Virus record (IMG/VR): IMGVR_UViG_3300047551_000294
Span: 1 to 20,675 of that record
Strand: one strand, 5' to 3'
Origin: a virus
DNA: 20,675 bases
Shown here: piece by piece, positions 110-19,750 of the stretch
How positions within the stretch are numbered: position 1 is the first letter of the stretch
Layout of the letters: each line of letters opens with the position of its first letter
Made by a program: the position numbers and the translations under genes
Notes under the pieces: model-generated
Seen by the model: the letters and a program-made list of their open reading frames with translations, nothing else
The model's database searches: none
Told to the model about the DNA's origin: nothing

Positions 110-296
110 GATAGCTTGGGAGCACGTACCGCCGGGAGGCGGCATTTTTGTACCCACATTAAACCCACAACGTACTATAGAGAAGATATACCGCTCTGCA
201 ATGGAGTCGCGTGTGTTTACGCTTAAGCCAATCGTTTGTATTCTCAACGGGCAGCTAGGCGTTTACTTTCAGCGACATCGGCAACTAAGGCTTTAG
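66..296 (+). CDS. Small plus-strand phage protein, function unknown
   Basis: A 76-codon frame starts at GTG 66, with GAGGA at 51-55 ten bases upstream. It differs from the usual antisense shadow because its residues look like a real small domain: a Trp then VPPGGGIFVPTL (about residues 18-32), a helical stretch with IEKIYRSAMESRV, and a C-terminal LNGQLGVYFQR. I recall small uncharacterised phage proteins with a W-x-x-VP-x-GG-x-F-x-VP pattern and a terminal G-x-x-GV-x-F-x-R, but I cannot confirm homology here. It converges on the giant minus-strand gene and shares its last 53 bases with that gene's 3' end (244-296). It would mark the junction between a late minus-strand operon and a plus-strand module. 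The start is uncertain: TTG 99 is an alternative. A shadow frame remains possible. Confidence 0.5.
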   Translation: MLTQSEYQYRKLKTKIAWEHVPPGGGIFVPTLNPQRTIEKIYRSAMESRVFTLKPIVCILNGQLGVYFQRHRQLRL

Positions 297-6200: not shown

Positions 6201-9200
6201 CAATATACGTTTCAAGCGATCTGAAGCGTTTGGAAACATCGTCGTAGTTGTCTTGCGCAAACGCAATTCTTTCTTTTGCTTTTACTGTTTTTTCATCATC
6301 CGGCTTAAACAAAAGCATGTCTCTGCGTTGTTCAAGCTCACGTTTACGCTGGTTTAATACTTCAACAACTTGCGCACGACCATTGTCGTTTTGCAAATTA
6401 AACAGCGTGTTTTGCGCTTTAGATAATGCTTTGAAAGTGTTTAGCCATGCGGTAAGTGCATCCGCTTTAGAGGGCGCTACATACTCAAAATACGATTTAA
6501 CCGTGTAGAGATCTGCTAACTTATTAGACAGGGCGTTAATCTGCTCTTGTATGCTGTCAGCCATTGAAGCTGCACGGCCCTGATCCTGCTCTTTTGTAAG
6601 CTCATTGATCTTGGTTACAGCGTCATTGATTTCTGCTTTAGTTTCTTTTAACTGCGCATCAATAGCCTGCATACGCTCAAGCGCAAAATCACGCGTAAGC
6701 ATTTGAGCAGACATCGTGCTCACATCAACTTTAGCGGCTTCAAGAGGTTCAGTTAATTTAGCAGCGTCTTCTTTCAGTATTTTTGCAATTGCGTTTAACG
6801 CTGCCTGACGTTGAGCGAACGTACTGTAGGTAACAGCCGCTTGCGCCGCAGACGTAGATTGATCAAGCATCCCAAGCTGAACTTGCAACGCGGCAAGTTC
6901 ATCCACAGTGGCTTGGAATTCAGGAGTAGGTTTAACAACGTTTGTAACCGCAGCCTGTGCCTGTTTTACAGGCGGTATCTTTAGCCTGATTGAATTTAAC
7001 AAACGCTGGAAGTTAGCCGGAGAAGCGCGAGTTGTACCAAGATCAAGCAGCACATACTTCATGGGCTTTTTACCCGCAAGCATGTCTTGTAGTTCAGCTT
7101 CGCGTTCTTTACGGTCTTGCCGCAGTGCAGCAGGGGCTTTTTCTAAACGCGCAATCTCTGCTTTAATTTCTTTAGTACGGCGTTGTGCGCTTGCGTACTG
7201 CGCACCAAACTGCGCCAAGGGCATCTTCTTACCCTTAAGCGATCCTTCAATTTGTTGAAGCTCTTTTCGCAACTCAGGTAGTGTGCGTTTGGCTTCCTGC
7301 TCAACACGCTCTGGAGAAAATAGCTCAAGCTGTCCTTCAGGAATGCCGCCTTCTGGAACTTCTTCTTTTTCCTCAGCGACAACTGCTGCTTTACGTGGTG
7401 CAGACTCAATCCCCGGCAGCGTAAACTGCTCGCCGGGAATAAACGAACGAGCTGGACGTGCCTCACGTGCCAACGCTTTATCACGAATCTCTGCAAGTTC
7501 TTCTTGTGTCACAAACAGCGCACGAGCAAATGGACGTGCTGCCTGTGTGCCAGCCTTCATATCCGCAGCAAGCTGCTCGCGGGTGATGTTTTTACTAGGC
7601 GTAAAGCGTGGTAACTCCTGCGGTCTGCGAATTTCTTCTACGACTTTTTTGTAACGTGCTTCACGAATAACTTTACCCTGCCGCATCACAGCAGGCTCGA
7701 CAAGTTCTTCTTGAATCTTAAACCCAATAACTTCCGGGTAATACTCTTGCGCCCGAATCATCAGCTCGTCCATCTTCTTGGCAAGCTGTTTAGTTAAAGC
7801 ATTTCTTTCTGGGGTGCCTACTCCGCTTACCCCTTCTGCTCGGCGTGTAGCGTCGATCTCATCAATGACGGCAATGATGTAGTTGTTACGGTACGTTACA
7901 GCTTGCTGAAGTGCATCTTTACGTTTTGCAAGTGAATCTTTCTTAAACTGCTCAAACGTAGGCATCATGTATTCCTGCCCACGCGCTGTGGCTTCTTCAG
8001 CCATTGACGCTACGTAGTAACGATACCCGCGCTCAGTCTGCCCTAGTTTTGTCTGACGTAGCTCATCAAGGGCAGAAGCAAAATTACTAAACTCCTGATC
8101 TTGGCGACTCTGTGCATCTTTAATAGACTCACGTGCTTTTGCCCCGCCAACCTTGACCTTGGCTTTAATCTGCTCAATCTCTGTATCACGCTGAGTAATT
8201 GTTTGCAGCGTCGTGTCGTAGCGTTGTTGTGCTGCGGCAAGTTGTTCTTCGCTAGCTTCAGGCTGCGCAGTGAGCGCGTCAAGTGCTGTCTTGGCTTCTT
8301 GTGACTGCTTAACTGCCGCATCACGTTCCTTCTGAAGCTTGGCTATACGCAGTGCGTCATCGCCACGAACTAACAACTCCTCAGCAGGTACACCAAGATC
8401 TTCAACGCGCTTCTCAGGTTGATTTCGTTTGAGTGCATTTAACTCGTTGATCCGCACCTGTGTAGCAAATGCCTTTAAGCCATCAGGCGTAAACGTATTG
8501 TCAGGCGTTACAAGCTGCTTATCTTCTGCAAGATAACTCTGTAATTTTTCACGCTCTTGTGCAACACGATCTTCAATCTGGTCAATGGACTGAAGTCCCA
8601 GTAACTTCTTTACAAGCGGCGACAGTTCGCCTTTACGAACAGCGTCCATATACTGGGCACGTTCTTCGGGTTTTATTAGCCCCAGTGCACGGAGACTTAC
8701 AGGACTATCAAGCGAACGCTCCACACGCTGAAGGGCAATGTCTTCAGTTTCTGCCGAGCCCATCATGAGCTTGGCTAGTTGTTTTACATCACGGCGAGCT
8801 TGTTCTTCCGCAGCACGTGCTTCTTCCACACGCATCTTTTCTTGGCGCTCAGCCATGCGCCCTTCCAAAGTTTCTGCTGTCTTGGCGGGGGGCAGCTCTG
8901 CTTGATAACCAGTGTCAACTTCTTCTGCTGTACGTTCTGCGCGTCTGGTTGCTTCAGGGTATGCAAACCCTGCTGGCGTTTCCATGAACAGTTGTTCACC
9001 ACCAACCTGCGGTGCTTGCGCTTCAAGCCGCTGACGTTCAGCGCGTAGCGTTTTAATTTTTTGCGCAAGCTCGCCAGCCTTCTGACTTTCGCCAAGCTCG
9101 GCTTGCTTTTGCATATTCTTGAGCAGCTTAGCTTCTTCAGCCTGTAGTACCTTGAGCGCTTCCATCGGATCAGGCACAGCGTTAATAGACGCTAGCTGTT

Positions 9201-10527
9201 CTTCAATCTGTTTACGCCCTTGGATTAATGGCGATAGTTGCTGGCTCATTGCCGCAACAGCATCCACGTCACCCGTCTGCGTAGCCTGTGCAATTTGTTT
9301 TTGGTAATCCTCTATTGCGCGAGATACACGCGCATAGTCTTGTTGTAACTCTTGAGTTTCTTGTGTGCGATCTACAACAGGCGCAGGAGCCTGCATCTGC
9401 GGCCCTGTCACAGCAGCTTCAGCTAAATCTAAGGCTCGTTGGTCCGCAGCAAACAGAGGCACCCCTGCTTCTTCTGCACGACGTTGACGGTCTGCAAGCT
9501 CTGCCGCTTCAGCCTTACCCTTTTCTTCTTCAGCGCGTCTACGTGCAACTTCTTGCTTTATCTTTGTTTCAGCCCGTGCCTGCTCACTACCACGCTCAAA
9601 GTATCGGCCTACTGGCGATATAGCCCCGCCCAGCACTGCACCGCCAATAAAACTATCCACGTACTCACGACGTGCGTCAGCGTCTGCAATCTTTAAGCCA
9701 GCTTGTAAACGCTCAATAAACTGCTGGCCTGTTTCTGTAACACCTTCAATCCCGGCAGTACGTGCACCTGTCGCAGCGTAGTCAGCCAACGTGCGCTTAA
9801 AACCCTGCTGTGCAATCTCTTTAGCTTGAGCTTCTGTAAGTTCTTTACCAACAGACTTAAACAAGTTACGGACAAGTGGCAGCGCACGGAAACTAACCAC
9901 ATCAAGCGCAGCTTGCGGCACAGCCGCAATAAAAGCAGTTGCCCCACTGGTCTGCTCTAGCCCCGCGTTGGGGTTAATACGTTTGACTTCTTCAAGCTGC
10001 CTTGCAAGGTTTGATCCTGTGAACTGCCCAGCAGAGGTAAGTCCTGCGGCTGCACCGGCAGCTAACGTGCCAAGCGTTAACCCCCCAACAACAGGAGCGG
10101 CAGCGGCAGCGGCGGGTATAGCCAAAGTACCAGCGGCGGCAGCAAGCGGCGCCGCCATATAAGGTAGCGACCCACCAATTAATTCTCCAAGTTTTGTAGG
10201 AAAAGCTTCAAGATACCCTTTTTCGGTGGGTTTATATATGCGTTCGCTTTCAGCTTTTTGTTTTGCTTGAAATTTTTCTGCTTCATCTAAACCCATCAAC
10301 CCTAGCTTGCCAGCCGTAAGTGCGGCTTCACCTTTAAGGGATTCAAAGCTTGATTTAGCGCTGCCTGTTAGCCCAGACAAAAAGCCTTCGGGTTCCGAAG
10401 GTCTAGCTTTTGCTTGAGGTCTACTTTGTTGAAGCGCGTAACGGTACGCTTCAGCGTCTGTCAATTCACGTGGGGAAGAAACCTCAAATGTCCCACGGCC
10501 CGGAATATTGACTTCATAAGTAGGCAT
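244..10527 (-). CDS. Giant polyvalent phage protein (zincin-like, ART-like and LPD38-type domains)
   Basis: This 3427-residue protein is probably packaged and ejected with the DNA. The start is ATG 10527, with AAAGG at 10534-10538 six bases upstream. Domains seen: residues 1-30 a small beta-like element (YEVNIPGRGTFEV); about 115-165 very hydrophobic Ala/Gly helices that could insert in a membrane; about 330-1950 long charged, Gln/Ala-rich coiled coil; about 1960-2170 a zincin-like metallopeptidase with H2041-E2042-V-G-A-H2046 and a candidate third ligand E2105 in DDEILAYFVEE; about 2177-2515 an ADP-ribosyltransferase-like domain (HGT at 2181, GTGEGVQAYMWGTY, later KPLSEQS and NYVNF); about 2520-2920 a helical region with DYIPFYR near 2776; about 2925-3300 an LPD38-type segment (RNPVYMLRQLVRD). 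Large multidomain proteins with such parts are known from phages and plasmids as polyvalent proteins, thought to enter the host with the DNA. Enzyme activity is inferred. The ART-like part is strongly AT-rich (about 3020-3860). It is the last gene of the operon. Confidence 0.9.
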   Translation of the reverse strand: MPTYEVNIPGRGTFEVSSPRELTDAEAYRYALQQSRPQAKARPSEPEGFLSGLTGSAKSSFESLKGEAALTAGKLGLMGLDEAEKFQAKQKAESERIYKPTEKGYLEAFPTKLGELIGGSLPYMAAPLAAAAGTLAIPAAAAAAPVVGGLTLGTLAAGAAAGLTSAGQFTGSNLARQLEEVKRINPNAGLEQTSGATAFIAAVPQAALDVVSFRALPLVRNLFKSVGKELTEAQAKEIAQQGFKRTLADYAATGARTAGIEGVTETGQQFIERLQAGLKIADADARREYVDSFIGGAVLGGAISPVGRYFERGSEQARAETKIKQEVARRRAEEEKGKAEAAELADRQRRAEEAGVPLFAADQRALDLAEAAVTGPQMQAPAPVVDRTQETQELQQDYARVSRAIEDYQKQIAQATQTGDVDAVAAMSQQLSPLIQGRKQIEEQLASINAVPDPMEALKVLQAEEAKLLKNMQKQAELGESQKAGELAQKIKTLRAERQRLEAQAPQVGGEQLFMETPAGFAYPEATRRAERTAEEVDTGYQAELPPAKTAETLEGRMAERQEKMRVEEARAAEEQARRDVKQLAKLMMGSAETEDIALQRVERSLDSPVSLRALGLIKPEERAQYMDAVRKGELSPLVKKLLGLQSIDQIEDRVAQEREKLQSYLAEDKQLVTPDNTFTPDGLKAFATQVRINELNALKRNQPEKRVEDLGVPAEELLVRGDDALRIAKLQKERDAAVKQSQEAKTALDALTAQPEASEEQLAAAQQRYDTTLQTITQRDTEIEQIKAKVKVGGAKARESIKDAQSRQDQEFSNFASALDELRQTKLGQTERGYRYYVASMAEEATARGQEYMMPTFEQFKKDSLAKRKDALQQAVTYRNNYIIAVIDEIDATRRAEGVSGVGTPERNALTKQLAKKMDELMIRAQEYYPEVIGFKIQEELVEPAVMRQGKVIREARYKKVVEEIRRPQELPRFTPSKNITREQLAADMKAGTQAARPFARALFVTQEELAEIRDKALAREARPARSFIPGEQFTLPGIESAPRKAAVVAEEKEEVPEGGIPEGQLELFSPERVEQEAKRTLPELRKELQQIEGSLKGKKMPLAQFGAQYASAQRRTKEIKAEIARLEKAPAALRQDRKEREAELQDMLAGKKPMKYVLLDLGTTRASPANFQRLLNSIRLKIPPVKQAQAAVTNVVKPTPEFQATVDELAALQVQLGMLDQSTSAAQAAVTYSTFAQRQAALNAIAKILKEDAAKLTEPLEAAKVDVSTMSAQMLTRDFALERMQAIDAQLKETKAEINDAVTKINELTKEQDQGRAASMADSIQEQINALSNKLADLYTVKSYFEYVAPSKADALTAWLNTFKALSKAQNTLFNLQNDNGRAQVVEVLNQRKRELEQRRDMLLFKPDDEKTVKAKERIAFAQDNYDDVSKRFRSLETYIDGFEDRKNAALAPLKAQLAKERDRIKQYEKLPAAYKSELKEAYRDADKIVQETVNTINKLEADLAKAQLDFDRTTDERNISAAQLAKAVETLYKNARTYMRYDSRTGAVEVVRSGSAAPTSGEIDARIDRANREFARGKQMLETTKKLSETRKALDAEREQLAAVQLGLNLPGTKVERKAVVVETDEDTIELKKKYDREVKNIRSQLSKLKKQVEKGEQDKVGPATSKMAALYGKMEALRQDLAILQDQPVQRLDVQPITAAPFNLEALEKAQLGRVQEATEKEKQKYEQRIQDIDKQIAEAKGAQRARLGKTKKLLLEQKEIFEATGGNVDLQALELAQAFENARMRTVGADKSIPRISEEQLAAQVGVYKNDIKAIDKALAAKGKKTKIEGPLRDTLITAKDNRLEAIKEIQTLINASNERIAAIIDENFNKPKGTPKTRATEAAKLQYEIDAMSYSAPDVKKAAKDYGFKSAEYARALRDARRNAIAHMSELENVPQAQSIRDYFERKGILKSRGQVENPTTVAEVRKVIQGAFPLVTDWDNKNVYVYPDVKSLGKNIGEYYNVPTDARGFVTPYGEVYLIASNIPKGQELAVFLHEVGAHVGFRNMLGDAQYKALVNQVETWAKRDDGSQESKIAKAAMQRVDYAFADETPDVETRDDEILAYFVEEAVIAGVNPTEKGKGPVAGFLYRLYENFKKIIGKLLGPDFAKEIKNMTAQDFVDFAYGAADFELRGEWHGTGITFQEFDHSYMGTGEGVQAYMWGTYTATRPGTALSYARQELNKKLELNKPKIKFDYKTAVRFDGKTRAELSVIRDKAFSDYVKAIPDVTDLEFKKLQKEYGKLADITDLIDAFTHYIDMAVDFGESKKIIEALVSNNNSQLVDALIERLKIDRDLDSYSFSPEELNKLLKDFSFVYSVSAPVKSSTYLKRVIRERKEDEYWELEKPLSEQSKHVQKSFDELLNDLATPEDAAVLKELLDKENDRLFAANLLPAYLYAQEVIKGNKGDTVKKIADDRKKLILVSVKDPYFRDGLGYTELQKAASELLWSYGIAGNKHQGRKGANYVNFYDKQQQILTAAEVSDLKEGVKDVLGTKGATSKVLFSVNYPADMPANVADTVQRITGAEQGVVERLKNTLRGGEFRARFVDRLDPLEQVLKYAKDNELAQAQQMFEAVYYSRMHDQRMNFTSAVVNHGGMKMVQRPKADGSMEFIPEAGFGVSLREISESLRESGIDADAANRLFTTYMAHQRAKNNPSVGLRKLNFNTDPAKGGISVDMLKDVDAYINAKPEIKDAFEKARTQYNEYNKNLINFLEATGAISKDLAKTLNATKDYIPFYRVDEKKEQVFLSIGTEDVPINIGSLKEQPYLRELVGGNTHIVDFFTSSIQNTSILTDMALRNLASSRVATSLEALQFAKIKPDAKPEGPNVVRFKVNGETHSAVIDEDKLQEIGIDASILVKGLEGVSMTLPFMARLFTGPAQILRKFVTRNPVYMLRQLVRDTSAAALVTGADIVPVYSAVKQLPSMIKGTSNAEDILKKRGVFGGQTITGSPEDMANLIRDLANGGKTLNYQLARLDALSMKADAATRVALYDDFRKKGMSEMEATMGALESMNFGRRGYSPTTYMLSMLVPFMNAQIQGLDVVYRAFTGKMYGQNQLDVRKKLWTRGALLAATAVAYAALMQDDEAYENASPEDKYTNFFVYIPGVEEPLRVPIPFELGYIFKALPEMLYNMATTDETLQKNMPAIKAMVANSVPVGLPQFIKPALEVAVNYSFYGGRAIESEREMDMTNAMRVRQNTTEISKLLSQMTTVTVGTKEYGLSPIQIDYLFRNYFSGLAPALMSLANPVLEDTTTVKPETRASGTVLIGGLFQPKDGTGLINFAYEQMRDIEQRQRTLKELERTGTEAAVLAFEKENEPLLDMSKDAGRFKKKMGDLAREEREIRADPNMTPAEKRKELDDIRQERIELAKALVADVAESKRLAAR
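3020..3860. other. AT-rich patch inside the giant gene, within the ART-like domain
   Basis: Hand counts of single 60-base lines give about 32% G+C at 3121-3180, 33% at 3481-3540, 35% at 3541-3600 and 35% at 3601-3660. Flanking lines give 57% at 2401-2460 and 52% at 3961-4020. The patch encodes residues from about 2222 to 2500, the interior of the ART-like domain. The conserved N-terminal motif of that domain (HGT, GTGEGVQAYMWG) lies outside it at normal composition. The reading frame runs through both edges without a break. Edges are approximate. Confidence 0.75.
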
Positions 10528-10536
10528 CTAACACCT

Positions 10537-12321
10537 TTAGTCTTTTTTCTTCACCGTTACACCAGCGGGCATACCACCAGCTCCACCAGTCATTTGAGCA
10601 ATAAAGTCTTCAACACCATTGTACTTGTCGCGTTCGGAACGCGGAAGATCGTTGAACGCCGCAGCAAGTCTTGCTCGATCCGCAGCAGACACTTCTGATT
10701 TGCCTTTTGTTAAAAACTTATCAAGCGCGTCATTAAATGACATATTTCCGCGTTGGGCAATTCCATCAATTACCCGCAGCGTGTCGGGCGCCATATTTGC
10801 AATTTGAAGTTTGGTTTGGCTGCTTAGTTTTTCCAAATCAAATCTGGACTTAATTTCAAGATTAAGCATTCTTTCTTTAAGTTGCCGGTCTAAAGCCCCT
10901 TCTCGTTCTTTTAACGCACGTTCTTCTTTACCTTCAGTTTCTCGGGAACGAAGCTGCGCCACCACTCTATCCATCTCAGCTTTGAGTGTTTCTTGGAACT
11001 GGTTTTCTTTCATAACTGCATCAAGATCGCCACGCTTCTCGGCGCGATCTGCGCGAGTAGCACTAGCTTTAAGTGCTGCCATATCCATTTCAAACTTACG
11101 CTCTGCATCTTGTTGCCCAGAAACAAACTGCGCTGCTGCCTGACCTGCTGCACCGGCTGCACGTTTACGTGGAGCTGCCCCATATGCGGCTAATACATTA
11201 GCAAGACCTGCAAGCCCAGCCTGTTCCTTATACTTTGCTTGCGCTGCTTTCATTTCTTCAGCTTGTGCGCGTAGCTCATCCCCAGCCCCGCCCGATAACC
11301 CAAGTTCTTGCATCAGTGTTCTACGCGCAGCAAGGGCTTGGCGTAATCTAGCTTCTTGGGTAAGTTCAGGTCCAACTGCACCTTGTTCTTGTGCTGCGGT
11401 CTTTTGCTGCTCTGCAATACGCTCAAGTTCCCCACGTAGCCCTGCACTGGCTGAAGCATTTTCTGCGGAAGGAAAATCGATACCAGTAGCCGTAGGTTCT
11501 CTTGTCGCAGAAGGGGTTATTGAAGCAAGACCTGCGCCTTGCGATTGCTGTTGTCTCTGACGTGCAGCGGCTGGAACACCTCTGTCTAACCCGAGAGATG
11601 CAGTGTCGCCAACAGAAGGGGCGCGTTGTCCAGCAGCAGGGGCAACAGCAGCAGGGGCAGCCTGTGCTTGAGGCGCATTACGTTGAGCTAAATAACTTCT
11701 TCCAGCTTGAACATCTCGCTCAAGCGCTGCTAACTTGCCAAGTGCAGCGGGGTTGGTAATACTGCCTGACGCAAGTCCGCTTTTTATACGCGCAAGTTCT
11801 TGCTCATCTTCTTTTAGCTTTTCTTCGTCAAAATCTACAGCGCCGCCTAAGCGCTCGTTACGTCCAAAAATATCAAAATACTCTGTACGTTTATACCGTG
11901 GGGGCATGACAAAACCTTGAGATTGATAACGCTCAACCTTCCCACCACCGTCAAATGCAACAATACCGCCCCCTGCGTATCCTTTCTCAACAGCAGGAGC
12001 AGGTAGACTCTCTAACCCTCTGGCCTGTGGCACCTGTATAGGTTGTTGACGCTGCTGCATTGCAGCAAGCATTTTTTTAAGCTGTGCGTTCTCCATCATG
12101 GTTTTAGCCATGATTGATGGTGTCTGTGCCGGATCACCCATCGCAGCAGCTTGCTCACCCATCGCGCTCTGTATTCTCTGAGCACGTCTTACTTCTTCAG
12201 CCTCTGCGTCATCAGGGCGAACTTGGGGATTAGGCGACATGGGGGATTGATACTGCCCCAACCGCTGCTGAGTAATCCCAGGGTTCTTAAGCGCTTCTTG
12301 CATTTGAAGACGGTTAAACAT
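10537..12321 (-). CDS. Helical internal-virion-type protein with a Gly-rich GGGIVAF element
   Basis: A 594-residue protein with ATG 12321 and AAGG at 12329-12332 upstream; the SD overlaps the preceding gene's TAA. The N-terminus (MFNRLQMQEAL) is a short helix. Residues about 111-143 hold a Gly-rich stretch with YAGGGIVAFDGGG followed by MPPRY. Residues about 200-290 are Ala/Gln/Pro-rich and probably disordered. Residues about 300-525 are long amphipathic, charged helices likely to form coiled coil, including an Ala-rich AGLANVLAAYGAAP segment near 360. The C-terminus ends in a Gly-rich tail and a KKKD cluster. No enzyme motif is visible. Its place between the small virion protein and the giant polyvalent protein, and its helical build, resemble internal or ejection proteins of short-tailed phages. 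That role is inference. A tail-associated scaffold is the main alternative. Confidence 0.8.
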   Translation of the reverse strand: MFNRLQMQEALKNPGITQQRLGQYQSPMSPNPQVRPDDAEAEEVRRAQRIQSAMGEQAAAMGDPAQTPSIMAKTMMENAQLKKMLAAMQQRQQPIQVPQARGLESLPAPAVEKGYAGGGIVAFDGGGKVERYQSQGFVMPPRYKRTEYFDIFGRNERLGGAVDFDEEKLKEDEQELARIKSGLASGSITNPAALGKLAALERDVQAGRSYLAQRNAPQAQAAPAAVAPAAGQRAPSVGDTASLGLDRGVPAAARQRQQQSQGAGLASITPSATREPTATGIDFPSAENASASAGLRGELERIAEQQKTAAQEQGAVGPELTQEARLRQALAARRTLMQELGLSGGAGDELRAQAEEMKAAQAKYKEQAGLAGLANVLAAYGAAPRKRAAGAAGQAAAQFVSGQQDAERKFEMDMAALKASATRADRAEKRGDLDAVMKENQFQETLKAEMDRVVAQLRSRETEGKEERALKEREGALDRQLKERMLNLEIKSRFDLEKLSSQTKLQIANMAPDTLRVIDGIAQRGNMSFNDALDKFLTKGKSEVSAADRARLAAAFNDLPRSERDKYNGVEDFIAQMTGGAGGMPAGVTVKKKD

Positions 12322-12330
12322 AATCCCACC

Positions 12331-13050
12331 TTACTTTAAGATGCCTGCGTATTTCAACATAGCAAGAATTGACGCTGCGCTGCTTAAGTTCTGCATGTTG
12401 CTTGGGCCTTGTTCGTAATAACTTTGCGTAGCCATTGGGAAACCACTGATTAAGTTTTTACGGAACTCAAGCATTTGTTGCGGGTACTTATACTGTTCCA
12501 TTTCAAACGCAGCCCGATCTCTGTCAATCGCTGCTTGATCGGTTGCTTGTTTTTGCGCACCGATACCGTACATTTGACTTAATCGGTTTACATCCGCTCC
12601 CAGCGCTTGCAGCCCGTACTGTTGCGCGTTTTGATAAGCCGCTTGACTGCCTTGCATCTGAATATCGCCAAGCTGTCGTTGCAAGTTACGATCACGTTCA
12701 GCTTGTTGGATAGCATAACGGCTCCCACCAAACGCTCCTGCGCCTACAGCTCTAGCCGCATCAGTCTGTCCTGCAATATTAGAAGTCCGCGTTGCTTCAC
12801 GCTTGGCAACATCAATGACGTTTTGTTGGTAGGGGTTGATGTATTGGGTATAAAACGAAGCTGATTGTGGCGAAGCTAGCGACCCTAAACCAGTTATTGC
12901 ATTTGTTTGAGGGGTAGAAAACCCAGCCGACAACGGTTTGTCATAGGGCACATAGGGCAACCCAGCAAACGCTTCACCTTGTTGAAGTAAACGCTCTACA
13001 TACGGCCCCGCCCATGTAGATAAACCAGAAGTGGTAGAAGTTGTTGCCAT
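12331..13050 (-). CDS. Small virion-type protein with conserved GAFGGSR motif
   Basis: A 239-residue protein with ATG 13050 and GAGG at 13056-13059; the upstream gene's TAA (13053-13055) lies within the SD region, so translation is probably coupled. The N-terminus is Ser/Thr-rich (MATTSTTSGLS), followed by a Pro/Tyr-containing segment (GLPYVPYDKPLS). INPYQQNVIDVAKREA begins near residue 70, and AGAFGGSRYAIQQAERDRN lies at about 103-122. A Gln/Ala-rich helical part (about 115-200) and a hydrophobic end (SAASILAMLKYAGILK) follow. I recall the INPYQ...GAFGGSR pattern from proteins of uncultured aquatic phages that are usually left as hypothetical or structural. Position among structural genes supports a virion component, perhaps an internal protein. 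No catalytic motif is visible and no firm function is assigned. Confidence 0.85.
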   Translation of the reverse strand: MATTSTTSGLSTWAGPYVERLLQQGEAFAGLPYVPYDKPLSAGFSTPQTNAITGLGSLASPQSASFYTQYINPYQQNVIDVAKREATRTSNIAGQTDAARAVGAGAFGGSRYAIQQAERDRNLQRQLGDIQMQGSQAAYQNAQQYGLQALGADVNRLSQMYGIGAQKQATDQAAIDRDRAAFEMEQYKYPQQMLEFRKNLISGFPMATQSYYEQGPSNMQNLSSAASILAMLKYAGILK

Positions 13051-13052
13051 GT

Positions 13053-16000
13053 TTACCTCGGCATAAATTTACTAGGATTAATCTGTTTACCTTGCTTGGT
13101 AGTGCCGGTACGTTCTTTGCGGATGCGATCCATCATGTCATACAAAACTTGTGCTCCGGCACTTGAGTTGCCGTTACCAAGATGACTGACTACATCCGCA
13201 GGAATTACAAATTCGCCGTCACTTAGTGCAGCAGGGCGTTTACCATCAATGTGCGCAGCAACTTTATCTGCCATACCGTCAGTAATACCGCCTAAATATC
13301 TAGGTGGAAGTGTACTGCCGCCCTTTGCCATTGCCAATCCTGCCAACCCACCTTGCGCAAGCTTTCCCGGACCTTCATAACCAACAGGCGGCGTGTACTG
13401 AATAGGGCCAAACCTTTGGAAATACGGATCTTCGTAATAGTCGTAATCTGAAGGAGGCTTTGTGTATGTCCGCTTTGCAGTCCACGGTTGCTTTAAGTTG
13501 GGGTTGTATCCGGGGTCTCTATTGCCTGCATCGTCTGTCAACCCTGGAATTGTTATTGGAGTAACAACATCAACTTCACACTGTCCTGTTGTAGCGCTGC
13601 GGGTGTACCCTGCGGGGCAAGGATCTTCTTTAACAACATCATTACCCCCACCGCCTTTAACCGTGTCTTCAGGTATCGGGTCAATACAAAGACCTGTTGT
13701 AGCGTCAACGACTTTATTTGGATTAACACAAGCACAATTACCAAAGTCGTCTCTAAATTTATCAGGGCCACACCCTGTTACGGTTACTGAAGCTTTACAC
13801 GCGCCGGTTACAGGATCTCTTGTTTCGCCCGCACCGCAGACAGGCTTGCACTCATTACCAACTTTTTCTTGCCCTGCACCGCAGACAACGTCGTTTCCTC
13901 CCCCGCCTTCAACAGTAGTTTTAGCAGGGAAGTCAACACAGCCTAGTACAGGATCAAAGTCTTTACCTTGAGCAAGGCATAACTCACGTGTAGCTGTAAC
14001 AGTAAGTTTGTCGTTACCTCCACCACCTGTAACTGAAGTAGTACCTCCACCACCTGTAATATTAGACGCGAAGTCAACACAGCCTAGTACAGGATCAAAG
14101 TCTTTACCTTGAGCAAGGCATAACTCACGTGTAGCTGTAACAGTAAGTTTGTCGTTACCTCCACCACCTGTAACTGAAGTAGTACCTCCACCACCTCCAA
14201 TTGGTGGGCCAATAATATCTAAAAGAGATACGCACTTATTTAAAACTGGGTCGTACCCTAATCCTTGAGCTTCACAGCTTTTAGCAGTAACAGTAACTTT
14301 ATCGTTACCTGTCGCACCTGTCAGAGTGGAAGCGCCAGTGCCTCCGCTAATCAAATCATTTCCACCCCCGCCAACAACTGTGGAAAGATCTGTACCTCCA
14401 CCAGTGCTTGTTACTTCTAAAGGTTTAGGTAGTCCCAGCAAATCAAAATCAGACTCTGCAATGCTAGGGTCAATCCCCAACATTTGATTGCGGATGTCTG
14501 TAATGGACTTACCTTCTTTTATAAGATCTTTAACTATTTGTTGTTTGGTACTTAGCGAATCGTTTGTGTTCCACGTTTTTCCAAACAAAGAATATTGTTT
14601 GTTTTCTGGCGTTGTAACTGTCGATGTCCCTCCGCCACCACCTGTTTGCGCAGCCCCAAGTACAAAGTCAACAGGATTAAAGGTGTCATTACTACCGCCC
14701 CCTGTAACTGTTACGGAACTATTTAACGCGCTTGCAGCGTCAAGATTGCCTTCATCAAAAGCACCTTGAATAAGTTCTACGCCATCATCGCCTGTCAGTT
14801 TTGTGCCGGGGATTTTTATGTCGCCAAGCGAACCAAGCCCAAAACCTAAAGCGGTGTTAAGCAACACTTGATCACCAGTACCACCAGCAAGTGCCGTGGT
14901 TAACCCACTACTTACCGCTGTTGTAACGCCTTTAGTGATACTGTCGCTTAGTTTCCCGTCATCTAGTCCAACAGATTCAAGCGCATTACCTGTAAGCACA
15001 TTAACGGCTTGATTAAACGTTAAATCTTTACCGCCAACAACTCCCAGCGCGTCCCCTGATCCGGGTATAGTGACTGTATTAAGCGCTGTGCCAATTACAG
15101 TACCCTTTACGCCTTGAGCAAAATCCCCGCCCATTAATTCAGAAGCAGCGCCATTAACAAGCGAGGCAACGCCTGTTTTAATTAATGCTTTTTCTCCAGT
15201 AGTCAGTAAAAGATTAGACGCTAAATTACTACCGGCTATGCCTGATTCTGCGGCTACTAAGCCTGCTTCACCACCACCAAGCGCTGTGTTGATCCCCGAA
15301 ACAATAAAATCAGTGACTGTGTTGGTGATAGGTTTGGTTATGATGCTTGTCGGGTTTGCAATAGTGCTTGCGGCTTCACCAACCGTTAAGTTGGAGGCTA
15401 AAGACCCTATTCCTGCTTCTCCAGCCCCAGCAAGAGCTGTGTTAATCCCCAACTCCCCTAAAGCAAGCTCAGACGCCGCCGCAGTACCTGCACCAGCACC
15501 GCCTAAACCTAAAGCTTCCCCAGCCATAGGTCCAAGATACACTGCTCCAGCTACAACTGCTGCTACTTTAGCCGCGTCAATTAGTGCTTGATCAGGGTGT
15601 TCTCCTTTATAAAACTGCCCCTCACCTATAGGAACAAGTTGGTCCCCCTGCGGCACGTATGCTTGTGCTACACGTTCTCTGTCGGGGCCACCTGTTTTAC
15701 CGCCAATTTGAAGAATTACGTTTCCTGCTGATGCGTCTTGGGGAGTGACAGAAGAAGGGTCAACTTCTTGCAGTTGTCCGTTTACGTTTTGGTAGGTCTT
15801 TACAAACGTAGAGCTGTGCGCCAACGAGTCAGCTATTGTAGGATTAGTTGCAACTAAATAATCAACAATAGTGGCAGGACGATCAACAACTTCTTGAGTA
15901 ATACTGTCTCCGCTGCCAACATCAACGTAGTCTTGCGCAGTACCAAAATCAGTAACCCCAACAAAAGGGTTATCTAAATTAATTTCAGGGCCAAGATTTC

Positions 16001-16235
16001 TTTTCGGCTCTGTAACGGGAGCTACGTAGGGGGTTGTATCGCGTATACTTTCACGGGGATCAATACTAAATTCATTTGACTCAGGCAACCCCTGACTTAC
16101 AAGCCATTCAATATCCCCGGAAGCTTGTCCCGCAGCGTATAGATCGTCAGCCGTTACGCCCTTGGATACAAACCAATTAAGCTTATCAAACGGGCCGTAA
16201 GAACCCCAATCCGAAGGTAAACGTGGAATTGCCAT
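13053..16235 (-). CDS. Large mosaic virion-type protein with Cys modules, RTX-like elements and LSDGEFVIPADVV C-terminus
   Basis: A 1060-residue protein with ATG 16235 and GGTGGG just upstream. Parts in order: residues 1-55, a compact N-terminus (DWGSYGPFDKLNWF, then IEWLVSQGLPE); about 215-480, Gly/Ala-rich and hydrophobic with a degenerate repeat around GINTAL (about 262 and 313); 512-866, scattered GGGGND-type elements at 512, 622 (three nonapeptides in phase to 648), 690, 737, 777 and 861, matching the RTX pattern GGxGxDxUx; 654-886, Cys-pair modules holding all 16 cysteines of the protein; about 890-950, Pro/Tyr-rich; about 958-1060, a C-terminal domain with LSDGEFVIPADVVSHLG near 1004. 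I know that last motif from marine and freshwater phage virion proteins of unclear role. A tail, fibre-associated or virion-surface function is inference from position and composition. It is not an RTX toxin: no secretion or toxin domain is visible. Confidence 0.88.
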   Translation of the reverse strand: MAIPRLPSDWGSYGPFDKLNWFVSKGVTADDLYAAGQASGDIEWLVSQGLPESNEFSIDPRESIRDTTPYVAPVTEPKRNLGPEINLDNPFVGVTDFGTAQDYVDVGSGDSITQEVVDRPATIVDYLVATNPTIADSLAHSSTFVKTYQNVNGQLQEVDPSSVTPQDASAGNVILQIGGKTGGPDRERVAQAYVPQGDQLVPIGEGQFYKGEHPDQALIDAAKVAAVVAGAVYLGPMAGEALGLGGAGAGTAAASELALGELGINTALAGAGEAGIGSLASNLTVGEAASTIANPTSIITKPITNTVTDFIVSGINTALGGGEAGLVAAESGIAGSNLASNLLLTTGEKALIKTGVASLVNGAASELMGGDFAQGVKGTVIGTALNTVTIPGSGDALGVVGGKDLTFNQAVNVLTGNALESVGLDDGKLSDSITKGVTTAVSSGLTTALAGGTGDQVLLNTALGFGLGSLGDIKIPGTKLTGDDGVELIQGAFDEGNLDAASALNSSVTVTGGGSNDTFNPVDFVLGAAQTGGGGGTSTVTTPENKQYSLFGKTWNTNDSLSTKQQIVKDLIKEGKSITDIRNQMLGIDPSIAESDFDLLGLPKPLEVTSTGGGTDLSTVVGGGGNDLISGGTGASTLTGATGNDKVTVTAKSCEAQGLGYDPVLNKCVSLLDIIGPPIGGGGGTTSVTGGGGNDKLTVTATRELCLAQGKDFDPVLGCVDFASNITGGGGTTSVTGGGGNDKLTVTATRELCLAQGKDFDPVLGCVDFPAKTTVEGGGGNDVVCGAGQEKVGNECKPVCGAGETRDPVTGACKASVTVTGCGPDKFRDDFGNCACVNPNKVVDATTGLCIDPIPEDTVKGGGGNDVVKEDPCPAGYTRSATTGQCEVDVVTPITIPGLTDDAGNRDPGYNPNLKQPWTAKRTYTKPPSDYDYYEDPYFQRFGPIQYTPPVGYEGPGKLAQGGLAGLAMAKGGSTLPPRYLGGITDGMADKVAAHIDGKRPAALSDGEFVIPADVVSHLGNGNSSAGAQVLYDMMDRIRKERTGTTKQGKQINPSKFMPR
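13929..14055. repeat. Perfect 127-bp direct repeat, copy A
   Basis: This stretch is identical base for base, by eye, to 14070-14196. The period is 141 bp, exactly 47 codons, so the duplication keeps frame inside the 1060-residue protein. It encodes a GGGGNDKLTVTA element plus one Cys pair (CLAQGKDFDPVLGC). Identity at third codon positions points to a recent duplication or to gene conversion. Confidence 0.97.
14070..14196. repeat. Perfect 127-bp direct repeat, copy B
   Basis: This is the second copy of the 127-bp direct repeat, separated from copy A by 14 bases that encode a short linker. Beyond the left and right edges the copies diverge at once. The flanking GGGGG, TTSVT and GGGGND codons form further weak homology that could promote slippage or unequal recombination. 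Confidence 0.97.
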
Positions 16236-16247
16236 ATACCCACCATT

Positions 16248-17648
16248 TTATTGGGTTAGGTCGTAAAAAGAAATACTGCCAACACCATCGCCAAGCGTTG
16301 CGCCAGAAACCGTTCTGACCGCCAAGGTGTAAATATCACTAACACCAGCCAAGGATGCGCCTAACTGTAGATCCCAGTTATAACCTGTAGCAGAGCTTGT
16401 TTGACTTACCCCGGCGCTACCCGTGCTTGTGACGTAATCTGTCTGGACAATTGTCCCAACCGTTGCAATAGCCGTAGCAGCTACATCGTATTCAACATTA
16501 GAGTCAGAAGGTACGGTTGCTGCCCATGTAGCACCTGTAAGCACAGGGTTCTTCATCAAAGCTACTTCGTAGTTCTGACTTGTAGTCGGTAGAAACTGCA
16601 CCCTGTTGGGAAGAACCACCGCGCCCGTGCGCCCTGAAGCAAGTCTAATAGAAACAATTGGAAAGAAGTTTGCTGACGTACTGATGTTATTAAAGATCGT
16701 TGTGCGACGTGCCACATGATCAATAGACGTTTGCTCAAAGCCACCCTCTGAAACCACCGAGCAGCAGATTGACTTCATGCTTGCGGCAACCGCTGAAGTT
16801 GTTGTCGTTATTTCATATCTCACAGGTAGAATGGCCGTGGTCATGTAGACGTTGGTAATCTCGTTGGCATTATTAAAGGTGTGGCAAACAATATATTGCC
16901 CATTAATAATGAACCCACAACGTACCGACCCAACTCCTAACCACTCAAAATCCATCCACAGAATCTGAGCCTTAGAAGGATCAAGCGTTAACCCCGAAGC
17001 GCCTGTACCATCCAATTTATCGCCGTTCCATGAGGATTGATTAACTGTCCTAGCATCTGAGGGCGACCCACTTACTGACGAGCGAAGCACAAAAGAATAG
17101 GTACCGTCCACCCTTTGGAAGAAAACACCATTGCTCGTATTAAAGTAACCCACCCGCTGCGTGAGGTTCAAACTCTGGCTGCTGTCCATCACGAACGTCG
17201 CTAATACCAAAAGACCTTTTCCCGGTTGATATGGGAAAGACCGATAAGACTGACGCACCACCGAACCAACGCCCGCGCCAGTAACTTCCATCTTGACCGC
17301 AGCTTCGTCAGATAAAAACGATGTCGTACCTGTTCCGGTAGTTGCTACATCAAACTGATTATCCGCAGCGTATCGATTCTGACTATCAAATAAGGTATAC
17401 GGCTGACTAACACGCTGCCTACCAAACGCATCAAAATAAGTTCCGGGCAACGTAACCGTCCCGGTAATTGGGAGTTCAGAAGTAGTTGCCATAAGTTGTG
17501 CCAAAAAATTATCCAGCCGATTAAAGTACAAACGCAAGACGTTGCTGTATTGGTCTTGGTAAACAGACGAATAGTCTGACGGAGCTATAGGAAGGCTAGG
17601 CGGCGCGAACCTTGTAAATTGATAATCTGTTGTAACAACAAGCGTCAT
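16248..17648 (-). CDS. Beta-rich virion structural protein with FDAFGRQRVSQPYTLFDS motif
   Basis: A 466-residue protein. ATG 17648 overlaps the TGA of the preceding gene as ATGA (17645-17648), a classic coupling arrangement. After an N-terminal helix-like part (SVYQDQYSNVLRLYFNRLDNFL, about residues 28-50) comes TFDAFGR-type sequence at about 68-90 (YFDAFGRQRVSQPYTLFDS). The rest is Ser/Thr/Gly/Val-rich with alternating hydrophobic residues, as in beta-sandwich virion proteins. I recall the FDAFGR.RVS..YTLFDS motif in many metagenomic phage structural proteins without a defined role. It follows the 701-residue protein directly and may assemble with it. Candidates are a tail spike or fibre base, or a head decoration protein; the sequence does not decide. 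No enzyme motif is visible. Confidence 0.85.
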   Translation of the reverse strand: MTLVVTTDYQFTRFAPPSLPIAPSDYSSVYQDQYSNVLRLYFNRLDNFLAQLMATTSELPITGTVTLPGTYFDAFGRQRVSQPYTLFDSQNRYAADNQFDVATTGTGTTSFLSDEAAVKMEVTGAGVGSVVRQSYRSFPYQPGKGLLVLATFVMDSSQSLNLTQRVGYFNTSNGVFFQRVDGTYSFVLRSSVSGSPSDARTVNQSSWNGDKLDGTGASGLTLDPSKAQILWMDFEWLGVGSVRCGFIINGQYIVCHTFNNANEITNVYMTTAILPVRYEITTTTSAVAASMKSICCSVVSEGGFEQTSIDHVARRTTIFNNISTSANFFPIVSIRLASGRTGAVVLPNRVQFLPTTSQNYEVALMKNPVLTGATWAATVPSDSNVEYDVAATAIATVGTIVQTDYVTSTGSAGVSQTSSATGYNWDLQLGASLAGVSDIYTLAVRTVSGATLGDGVGSISFYDLTQ

Positions 17649-19750
17649 CGTCTACCATCCGGTCTAATATCAATTCGTGGTGCACCAAGCTGCCAAGTCG
17701 TCCCAACCCCATTAGACCCAATCTTCATAATCATCTGGCGACCACGGATGCGGGTGTAAATAATATTGGTGAACTGCTCAATCGTAACGGTGGAAGTACG
17801 CGCAACTGCTTTTGCTGCCTCAGTGTTAAACCCAGACCCTGAACCGTTCATACCATACATCGTCATCGTGACTTGGGGTGTTGCAGCCGTAGATCCGTCA
17901 AATGTTAAGTCAGGCACCATGCGCCATACAAACCCAAAGTTTTGTCCATCTTCAATATCAAATTCCGCAGATTCAATATAAGCTTCAATAGGCAGCGTGG
18001 TGCTTGTTTCATCGTCATCAACACCGTACTCGTGGTCCACGATGTTGTAGTTATAGGTAGCGGCTTGAGGATACGCACGAATACCTGAATCACTCCATGC
18101 AGTCCTAGCCATCGTACCGTAGTACCAAATATCTTCAGCGTAGTTGTACACAACATACCGATTAATGGTTGTTGAATCCTCCGAGCAATAGAACCACCAA
18201 ACCTCATTAAAACCTTCATTGGTGCCAGCAAAGATCTGGAAGTTTTGATATTTGTTAATGTCGTTAAAGATGTACCTACGCAAATCACAGCGCAAAGTCT
18301 TCACAACCCCGTCGTACACATAAAACTTATCCACACCCATCCAGTACGTTTTGCTGGAAGCTATTGCTGTGGCGTTAGGACCAACGATTGAAGTATTGTC
18401 TGCAAGAATCTGAGACCCCCATACCAGCGGAGGGCCGAGGTACTGCAAAGAAAAGAGCGCAGAATCAGTCCACACCAAAACTTCTTGGCGAGTCTGCTGC
18501 ACTGCAATAATCTGTGAACCGTGAGATAAACGCAGACTACCTGCTTGGTTAACTGCTGAAGGCACCCAATCCACTAACGATTCTTGATTACTCCAACGGA
18601 TTAGCATGGGGTCAGTCGTTACACTTCCATAATCATTAGTGCCAAACAAAAGTAAAAAGCGTGAAGCATCGGACACTAATAAGTTGTATTGCACAAGAGG
18701 TACATCAACTAACGTGCTTATAGATTGGACCCCGGACTGCGAGCCTGTTGTGGTGATTGCTGAACCTGTTATCGTAGCAGCAAGGTTTGCTGTAACCCCA
18801 TCAACATTAATTAAGTAGTACGTCGTGCCAGCCGTTAACCCCGTGGGTAGCGCACCTGTTGTTGCAAGTTTGATTGCTGTACCTTCTGCAAGTACATTGG
18901 ATAGCGTAATCACACATGGCGCAGCGATTGTAAGTGTTACCGTCCCACCGAGGCTATTGAGTGCAACACCTCTTGTGGATAAGCCGTTGGTAGCGTCCCA
19001 GTAGTACACCCCGCTTGTACGCGGACCAAAAACAAGATCCTCGCCCCAGTTGTTAGCGTTCCATATCCGCAGTGGATCAGTAACTTGAGGCGTAACACCC
19101 CATGCTCCACTACCCCAAGAACTTGCGCCCCATCCAATCAAGGGAACTTGGGCGACACCCGGACCCGTATTGACCTGAAACGCACCGACTGCACTGCCGC
19201 CACCATTACCCACATCAGAAGCGTTTGATATAACTGGAGCACCTGTACCGGGATCTTTGGCAGTAATTGTGAAGGTGTTAAGCGTAGGGGCTGATGCGAT
19301 TTGATACTGCTGATTTAATACAGCCGCTGTGATGTTTCCACCAAGACTAACTGCACCGGAGAAGGTTACGAAGTCCCCAGTAATAGCGCCGTGGCTGGCA
19401 GATGTAACCGTGATGGTGGATGAAAAAGGAGATACCGTAACGGCAGAAAAAGTAACTGATTGGGTAAGCCTGATGGGGGTGATGTCTGAATACGCACCAC
19501 CCTGCTCGATGTAGTATTTAAGATTGGTTCCAACGCCTAAAAGATTAGCATTACCAAGCGTTACCCAGTTCCACAAAGACCGGCAAATACCAAGAAAAAC
19601 TGCCTGAGAAATCTTGCGCCACCCACCAATCTTTTCAGGTGTGCCTTGACGAAAACGGACCTTGTCGCTAACATACCATCCGTTCTCATTTGTATAACGA
19701 GTGTTCTCTTTGTTGACCCCAGGCTTTAGAAGAATCTTTTTGAGTGGCAC
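17645..19750 (-). CDS. Large beta-rich tail or head-tail protein (possibly P22 gp10-like)
   Basis: A 701-residue protein starting at GTG 19750; GAGGTGA (19754-19760) gives ideal spacing and contains the endolysin TGA stop. The N-terminus (MPLKKILLKPGVNKENTRY, then VRFRQGTPEKIGGW and SLWNWVTLG) is strongly patterned. Two Thr/Gly/Val-rich inserts look like related small beta domains: about 95-185 (HGAITGDFVTFSG) and about 272-345 (GALPTGLTAGTTYYLI). From about 350 to 600, repeated W/Y-rich strands (RWSNQESLVDW, YWMGVDKFYVYDG, NEVWWFYCSEDS, YNYAEDIWYYG) suggest beta-propeller blades. The overall plan resembles the P22 gp10 packaged-DNA stabilisation or tail-accessory family, which joins the portal to the tail. 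I offer that from memory as the best candidate, not as proven. Next to it lie the lysis genes upstream and another structural gene downstream. Confidence 0.85.
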   Translation of the reverse strand: MPLKKILLKPGVNKENTRYTNENGWYVSDKVRFRQGTPEKIGGWRKISQAVFLGICRSLWNWVTLGNANLLGVGTNLKYYIEQGGAYSDITPIRLTQSVTFSAVTVSPFSSTITVTSASHGAITGDFVTFSGAVSLGGNITAAVLNQQYQIASAPTLNTFTITAKDPGTGAPVISNASDVGNGGGSAVGAFQVNTGPGVAQVPLIGWGASSWGSGAWGVTPQVTDPLRIWNANNWGEDLVFGPRTSGVYYWDATNGLSTRGVALNSLGGTVTLTIAAPCVITLSNVLAEGTAIKLATTGALPTGLTAGTTYYLINVDGVTANLAATITGSAITTTGSQSGVQSISTLVDVPLVQYNLLVSDASRFLLLFGTNDYGSVTTDPMLIRWSNQESLVDWVPSAVNQAGSLRLSHGSQIIAVQQTRQEVLVWTDSALFSLQYLGPPLVWGSQILADNTSIVGPNATAIASSKTYWMGVDKFYVYDGVVKTLRCDLRRYIFNDINKYQNFQIFAGTNEGFNEVWWFYCSEDSTTINRYVVYNYAEDIWYYGTMARTAWSDSGIRAYPQAATYNYNIVDHEYGVDDDETSTTLPIEAYIESAEFDIEDGQNFGFVWRMVPDLTFDGSTAATPQVTMTMYGMNGSGSGFNTEAAKAVARTSTVTIEQFTNIIYTRIRGRQMIMKIGSNGVGTTWQLGAPRIDIRPDGRR

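Follow-up and report, generated by a model that had tools for sequence, protein, structure and literature searches.

The window analysed here is a virus record of 20,675 bp from an uncultured water phage (IMG/VR record IMGVR_UViG_3300047551_000294, taken at its full length), and the gene under study encodes P0001, a tape-measure-like putative ejection protein. Positions 13578–14372 correspond to residues 622–886 of P0001, where cysteine pairs are interleaved with glycine-rich units resembling the RTX repeat; this segment is referred to as the array. The features of the gene are listed below in the order of the protein, with the basis of the assignment in brackets where there is one (ORF, open reading frame).

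13053–16235, minus strand: P0001, 1060 aa, tape-measure-like putative ejection protein with the array (ORF, translation, family and context)
15594–16235, minus strand: N-terminal region, residues 1–214 (identity to L218, L219 and L220)
15513–15596, minus strand: hydrophobic Ala-rich segment, residues 214–241, which opens a Gly/Ala-rich stretch to residue ~475 (hydropathy, low-confidence model)
14292–14372, minus strand: RTX-like triplet in 9-residue phase, residues 622–648, one perfect and two imperfect units (PF00353 at 622–647, E 7.5e-5)
14232–14276, minus strand: cysteine pair 1, residues 654–668
14142–14168, minus strand: single RTX-like unit, residues 690–698
14079–14120, minus strand: cysteine pair 2, residues 706–719
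13929–14196, minus strand: exact 141-bp tandem duplication, 1.9 copies, source of the units at 690–719 and 737–766
14001–14027, minus strand: single RTX-like unit, residues 737–745
13938–13979, minus strand: cysteine pair 3, residues 753–766
13881–13907, minus strand: single RTX-like unit, residues 777–785, its last residue being the first cysteine of pair 4
13848–13883, minus strand: cysteine pair 4, residues 785–796 (predicted strands 789–792 and 795–798, full-length AlphaFold2 model)
13797–13838, minus strand: cysteine pair 5, residues 800–813 (predicted strands 804–806 and 813–815, full-length AlphaFold2 model)
13734–13772, minus strand: cysteine pair 6, residues 822–834
13686–13730, minus strand: cysteine pair 7, residues 836–850
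13629–13655, minus strand: single RTX-like unit, residues 861–869
13578–13619, minus strand: cysteine pair 8, residues 873–886 (CPAGYTRSATTGQC)
13371–13538, minus strand: aromatic region YNPNLKQPWTA...EDPYFQRFGP (conserved across all five full-length members of A3)
13056–13358, minus strand: C-terminal module, residues 960–1060 (tape measure motif kinship via the family profile)

Translation and counting confirmed the observation of an earlier sequence-only reading that all cysteines of P0001 are found in pairs at residues 654–886. The 16 cysteines (654, 668, 706, 719, 753, 766, 785, 796, 800, 813, 822, 834, 836, 850, 873 and 886) fall within 233 residues, which has a chance of ~2e-11 for one given segment of this length, and the other 827 residues are cysteine-free. 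They form eight consecutive pairs with spacings of 14, 13, 13, 11, 13, 12, 14 and 13. The motif GGGGND was found at residues 622, 690, 737, 777 and 861, and all five copies match the RTX pattern GGxGxDxU, as had been claimed. In shuffled residues 500–900, GGxGxD reached a maximum of 3 in 20,000 composition shuffles and of 4 in 3,000 dipeptide shuffles, and the maxima of GGGGND were 1 and 3, respectively, all below the observed number. In the triplet described as in 9-residue phase at 622–648, only the first unit is perfect, as the second (GGTGASTLT) lacks the Asp and the third (GATGNDKVT) lacks the second Gly. The 141-bp duplication, of which 127 bp are identical between the copies, produced two cysteine/RTX units and is recent. 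Because the motifs at 690 and 737 and their cysteine pairs are copies derived from it, they are not independent.

Searches of Pfam, PHROGs, NCBIfam and PDB over the array region gave nothing except the RTX match, which was borderline (PF00353, a single stretch at 622–647 with 23.1 bits against a cut-off of 23). AlphaFold2 modelling of residues 600–912 from four sequences gave a mean predicted local distance difference test (pLDDT) score of 45. Short β-hairpins were predicted over several of the pairs, with block-mean pLDDT values of 57–76 at residues 780–850, and most of the RTX stretches were unstructured at pLDDT 24–34 with these four sequences. The full-length model (pLDDT 37) was used for secondary structure only; residues 214–241 were drawn as a helix in it. 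No β-roll was observed in either of these low-confidence models, and the tandem perfect nonapeptides of a roll are absent from the window, where only one of the three in-phase units is perfect. In a β-roll the calcium ligands come from turns 18 residues apart. Because this spacing fits residues 622 and 640 only, calcium binding by P0001 would be possible only locally. A fold search with the segment model returned no matches at E 0.001 and was rejected, the model being too weak; the best matches (adenovirus fibre, reovirus sigma1 and LDL-receptor-type chains) had E 0.3 or worse, and none was significant. Ahead of the array, residues 215–475 contain 18% Gly and 16% Ala, and the maximum Kyte–Doolittle value in a 19-residue window was 1.68 at residue 217, compared with a family median of 1.41.

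Cysteine pairs among the relatives of P0001

Relatives were collected in three scans with the C-terminal 100 residues as the query. This part of P0001 is very widespread: at least 596–598 stretches were confirmed in each scan, and the best 80 of each were kept, so that the sets represent the closest relatives of each query and not a random sample. The queries of the second and third scans were members with cysteine arrays; hence these two sets lie near cysteine-bearing members, though they were chosen by the C-terminus. ORFs cut by contig ends, L001 (the window itself) and copies with more than half of their 5-mers in common with a longer member were dropped before counting. ORFs were trimmed to the first ATG, from which the true start may differ. 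Some contigs were entered twice, once from a cysteine-pattern scan and once later (L134/L234, L113/L236, L152/L313, L150/L315 and L181/L233); clustering removed these double entries from the representatives but not from the 240 complete ORFs.

Among the 240 complete P0001-like ORFs, 192 had no cysteine, two had one, 46 had an even number of two or more, and none had an odd number above one. The 187 representatives were distributed likewise (157, 2, 28 and 0), the number being even in all 28 representatives with at least two cysteines. One of these, L132 7905–10034 (cysteines 5 and 28), is a P0002-like ORF in which the C-terminal module is also present; leaving it out gives 27 of 27. In the second and third sets, gathered by the C-terminus, 105 members had no cysteine, 22 an even number and two a single one. 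When the cysteines were taken in order, 279 of 312 in-pair spacings were 11–18, versus 48 of 284 between pairs. Control ORFs did not behave in this way: nozzle representatives were 11 odd and 17 even in one count and 9 odd and 16 even in the second and third sets, and ORFs upstream of the nozzle were 15 odd and 8 even. As whole modules duplicate, proteins and not cysteines were regarded as the independent units. Even counts together with sequential pairing are what would be expected if neighbouring cysteines bonded into disulfide hairpins under oxidising conditions. The proposal that the disulfides form outside the cytoplasm is backed by these sequence statistics, namely the even counts, the sequential pairing and the near-lack of single cysteines in the family.

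RTX-like units among cysteine pairs were found to recur as a design. The full-length homologues L221, L222 and L223 (22, 26 and 18 cysteines) have pairs interleaved with GGxGND units. L115/L189 carry an RTX block of five units, of which four are in tandem phase, ahead of cysteine pairs (PF00353 E 2.1e-7 for L115), and L183, with three RTX-like units and 30 cysteines, likewise has an RTX block and then pairs. L013 has an array of ten cysteine pairs that lacks RTX units altogether. Among the 27 representatives containing a cysteine pair, 5 had at least two RTX units, compared with 1 among the 160 lacking a pair (Fisher p 2e-4), a p value that is optimistic because the window, L221 and L222 are related. 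The single case without a pair is an artefact, since the two matches of L326 are overlapping windows in one Gly/Asp run.

Over the N-terminal ~500 residues of P0001, L218 is 96–98% identical and stops short of the array region; L219 and L220, the next-closest N-termini at 51–57% identity, have cysteine pairs running up to the contig end. The variable region of the relatives consists of Pro/Thr-rich linkers in some members and cysteine arrays in others. In the cysteine-free relative L064 915–5312, the part between the middle and the C-terminal module is rich in units that look helical (SLEDIASALGLTVADLNAV type), and a few units resembling these were seen in L052. L011, L012 and Pra-JY27 (PP438419.1) were reported from different cyanobacterial hosts, yet all are 65,014 bp with an identical match; a single phage may have been recorded threefold, or a contaminant may be shared.

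By itself, the cysteine loop occurs commonly among viral contigs, with at least 120 stretches found; among the matches listed, 23 of 119 loci with a cysteine-loop ORF were in an ejection-cassette context. In L104 3328–4824 the loop belongs to a minor head/receptor-binding protein (phrog_1698, E 3.8e-84) on a 7-kb contig that is probably from an inovirus, judging by size and family. Similar loops (CPDGQxxNPDTGKC and the like) recur in 7–10 kb contigs such as L104, L105, L106 and L120. A peptide-pattern search for the cysteine/RTX segment in viral contigs gave 16 stretches, none of which was confirmed, the segment being too repetitive; tblastn of the L013 array against cultured phages gave no match, probably due to masking as low complexity. 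The sequence-only reading had known of no described family with this design, which holds so far, as no domain match beyond the borderline RTX one covers the region. The design is nevertheless less isolated than that reading supposed, given how common the loop is and its presence in L104. In the available text of the open-licence literature, no recognised case of an RTX, cysteine-rich or disulfide-bonded phage ejection protein was found.

Gene order, cysteine exclusion and the C-terminal module

The minus-strand order in the window is holin-like gene, lysozyme, P0005, P0004, P0001, P0002, P0003 and P0008, so that P0001 sits in a cassette between the nozzle gene and that of a large, putatively ejected last protein. 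The genes around it are as follows.

17645–19750, minus strand: P0005, tail nozzle (P22 gp10/T7 gp12 role, by family; family profile against PDB)
16248–17648, minus strand: P0004, virion structural protein (phrog_1645 E 5e-102)
12331–13050, minus strand: P0002, 239 aa, DNA-ejection-protein-like, no cysteine (phrog_4287 E 1.8e-5)
10537–12321, minus strand: P0003, 594 aa, cassette protein, no cysteine
244–10527, minus strand: P0008, 3427 aa, LPD38 domain, no cysteine, putatively ejected (PF18857 E 2.2e-26)

A profile of P0005 and four relatives matched PDB chain 9nwi_Y (E 1.3e-20), deposited under the name 'capsid and scaffold protein', and the VP1 nozzle (E 1e-7); this nozzle-type gene suggests a short tail. 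In the P0002 family, four of five alignment members match phrog_4287, with a best E of 2e-19. P0008, cysteine-free, is nearly of the size of N4 virion RNA polymerase (3427 versus 3500 aa); in its Pfam scan LPD38 alone was above the cut-off, and no polymerase family was among the matches.

Of the first-set loci with 900 bp or more of downstream sequence, 69 of 70 have a P0002-like gene directly after the P0001-like gene or fused with it, as do 142 of 143 such loci in the second and third sets. Fusions of P0001-like and P0002-like proteins occur in L050, L055, L058 and L132, of which L055 and L058 are near-identical. The order of the window is kept, with up to three extra small genes, in Caulobacter phage GB2A, DSL-LC04 (a metagenome-assembled phage), Synechococcus phage MinM2 and ctpbd312, and it resembles the P22 order 10...7-20-16. 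In such phages the P0001-like gene is annotated as 'tail tape measure', 'calcium-binding protein' or hypothetical.

Cysteine was nearly excluded from these cassettes. In the window, P0002, P0003 and P0008 have no cysteine in 4260 residues, versus 12 in 1473 for P0004–P0007. No cysteine was found in the 90,027 residues of the P0003-like representatives (152 of 152 cysteine-free), and among the 110 complete P0003-like ORFs one, a non-representative, has an odd cysteine count. The P0002-like representatives contain 51 in 75,245 residues (164 of 173 cysteine-free), 43 of the 51 being confined to two ORFs (L216 and L388), and the P0001-like representatives with fewer than two cysteines contain 2 in 114,887 residues. 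The nozzle representatives have 227 in 37,011 residues, and none of the 54 is cysteine-free. Relative to the nozzle, no residue was depleted as strongly as cysteine in the P0001-like and P0003-like families (ratio 0.00); for P0002-like proteins, the depletion of His (0.10), Cys (0.11) and Trp (0.11) was about equal. Trp was low in all three cassette families (0.08–0.14 of the nozzle level). Because Trp and His are also depleted, the cysteine depletion may partly reflect a general avoidance of some residues.

The experimentally known ejection proteins showed the same tendency, with cysteines/residues of 1/2261 in T7, 0/1309 in P22, 0/4294 in N4, 0/2487 in SP6 and 1/1326 in Sf6, i.e. 2 in 11,677 residues versus 171 in 20,689 residues of comparison genes picked by hand from the same phages. 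For DSL-LC04, the values were 0/2766 in ejection-type proteins versus 33/4171 in others, and for GB2A 0/2070 versus 8/1671.

The C-terminal module of the P0001 family is related by sequence to tape measure proteins. One PHROG tape measure family was matched by 10 of 22 members. In PDB, the C-terminal profile hit the tape measure proteins 8zdo_S, with E 2e-8, and, at E 0.006, 8rk3_A, which is presumably JBD30 gp46, judging by its length of 1158. The common motif is of the type G-x-GPGTG-x-SDS...NGEF. The matched stretch 1016–1054 of 8rk3_A overlaps the JBD30 segment 1022–1066, which, in the excerpted text of PMC11445458, was predicted to be a hook anchoring the protein in the baseplate post-expulsion. 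8ZDO is listed as Douge in the data table of PMC13033339. A PDB sequence search with P0001 and family profiles gave no useful match for ejection homology.

Proposed role of the array and rival explanations

Taken together, we estimate a probability of about 0.6 that P0001 is an ejected protein of tape-measure-like kind and that its disulfide hairpins form under oxidising conditions, probably in the host periplasm. A short-tailed phage would eject P0001 ahead of its DNA. The C-terminal module would anchor the protein within the nozzle or portal lumen, the Gly/Ala-rich middle would contact a membrane, and residues 620–890 would be placed in the periplasm. During virion assembly in the reducing cytoplasm, and while threading the narrow tail, the chain would be flexible. 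Once it meets oxidising conditions, most likely those created by the Dsb enzymes of the host periplasm, neighbouring cysteines 1–2, 3–4 and so on to 15–16 would bond, and the resulting eight hairpins would stiffen and protect a channel segment. Alternatively, oxidation may already occur in the free virion; hairpins of 14 residues might be small enough to pass the tail. The RTX-like units would act as turns between hairpins and may bind calcium where two of them are 18 residues apart or where subunits meet. In this reading the gene order, the fusions, the motif kinship, the cysteine exclusion, the even counts and the sequential pairing are observed, whereas ejection, the site and timing of oxidation, stiffening and calcium binding are inferred.

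Several points weigh against this. P0001 as a whole matches no PHROG and its C-terminal 100 residues alone match none at E 0.01; the tape measure link therefore rests on the family profile, and the seeds of the nozzle and P0002 profiles were the window plus four named phages picked by annotation and position. With 157 of the 187 representatives lacking cysteine, the family can do without the array. Hydropathy peaks at a modest 1.68 in the hydrophobic segment, a value of at least 1.6 being reached in only 57 of 187 relatives, and the models are poor (pLDDT 45 for residues 600–912 and 37 for the full length). Two P0001-like relatives have a lone N-terminal cysteine (residues 8 and 17), possibly upstream of the true start, and two P0002-like ORFs have 33 (an odd number) and 10 cysteines. 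P0001-like L216 has 36 cysteines with 0 of 18 hairpin-type pairs. As the P22 and Sf6 needles also have no cysteine, its absence is no proof of ejection. The single bacterial-genome match was an 8-kb contig binned as Alphaproteobacteria, which is not decisive for the host.

The sequence-only reading had suggested that the array may form an external stalk or receptor-binding part. P0001 could sit on the outside of the tail as a needle, plug, stalk or receptor binder, with disulfides formed post-lysis and stiffening by calcium: its gene follows that of the nozzle, the spot of needle gene 26 in P22, the P22 and Sf6 needles share the lack of cysteine, the receptor-binding minor head protein of L104 has the identical loop type, and fibre shafts were among the fold matches, none of which was significant. 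However, the family shares the tape measure motif and includes fusions to ejection-type proteins, the middle of P0001 is Gly/Ala-rich, and the variable regions span Pro/Thr-rich linkers to cysteine arrays. Gene order, fusions, motif and cysteine exclusion favour a protein that is luminal and ejected; we consider an external stalk less probable than this and unlikely overall.

Still less probable is a fast-evolving low-complexity linker, in which the expansion of repeats multiplied Cys and GGGGND units that serve neither redox chemistry nor metal binding. The 141-bp exact duplication, the Pro- or Thr-rich linkers of other members and the low AlphaFold2 confidence are consistent with it, and copying whole two-cysteine modules would by itself preserve even counts, but even numbers in 28 of 28 representatives and pairing in 279 of 312 spacings were observed in cassettes otherwise nearly cysteine-free, and neutral gain or loss of single cysteines would give odd counts, as the nozzle ORFs show. 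Binding of a metal such as zinc by the array is very improbable, the pairs being 11–14 apart and not CxxC and counts such as 6, 18, 22 and 26 not being multiples of four; zinc was rejected on this spacing and these counts. The metal-binding look of the protein neighbouring the P0001-like one in ctpbd312 speaks for it. In this phage (L216 4282–7443, MW202545.1), the P0001-like protein has 36 cysteines and the adjoining P0002-like protein 33, with runs such as CCSCCCSCCC, which is a second, different way to break the cysteine rule, perhaps by metal binding.

A further extension of the preferred ejection reading is a redox switch, which we regard as tentative and rather doubtful. The ejection machinery would lack cysteine in order to pass the oxidising periplasm, and one tape-measure-like component with a disulfide-hairpin array, slack in the virion, would become a rigid piece of the channel when the oxidants and calcium of the host periplasm lock it; in some phages, RTX turns would serve as its calcium-sensing joints. 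If so, the phage would read the chemistry of the host envelope as a cue for the building site.

Comparison with known systems

Like the podovirus ejection proteins (T7 gp14-15-16, P22 gp7-20-16 and N4 gp50-51-52), P0001 is encoded after the nozzle (T7 and P22), and the cassette of the window apart from P0001 is nearly cysteine-free, as they are. Their location in the envelope channel is described in the excerpts of PMC8954989, PMC11784390 and PMC12633501. P0001 differs from them in having no PHROG sequence match and in its 16 cysteines, compared with at most one in each ejection protein of T7, P22, N4, SP6 and Sf6. The near-absence of cysteine as a criterion of ejection is a pattern from the present analysis and not a published definition. 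With siphophage tape measure proteins (JBD30 gp46 and Douge gp16), the P0001 family has the C-terminal motif in common, but the window contains a nozzle gene of the short-tailed type.

RTX β-roll proteins (PF00353) resemble P0001 in the GGxGxDxU units and the borderline Pfam match, but most of the units of P0001 are single and split by cysteine pairs, and no β-roll was predicted. EGF and peritrophin-A (CBM_14) domains have six cysteines, of which a two-cysteine loop is a fraction. The whole L013 protein scores CBM_14 at E 1.6e-10 and EGF_4 at E 4.6e-8, but no single stretch of it passes alone, and the window has no match above the cut-off to EGF or CBM_14 Pfam domains.

The N4-like virion RNA polymerase lacks cysteine, for which its authors invoked passage through the tail or a disulfide-forming periplasm, according to the excerpts of PMC3715699 and PMC2784036, and this absence has been used as a marker, as stated in part of PMC10747016. 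Proposed for a single giant enzyme, the idea is applied here to a whole cassette, one member of which breaks the rule with paired cysteines. The remark on one enzyme is thus extended to a countable rule for the ejection cassettes of short-tailed phages, with a patterned exception, and the rule could aid annotation of ejected proteins in metagenomes, where homology often fails. It also makes testable where and when ejected proteins fold, and whether host Dsb enzymes matter for phage entry. The components (ejection proteins, the tape measure motif, RTX units and cysteine hairpins) are known; their combination, and the patterned exception in cysteine-poor machinery, did not turn up in searches of open-licence papers.

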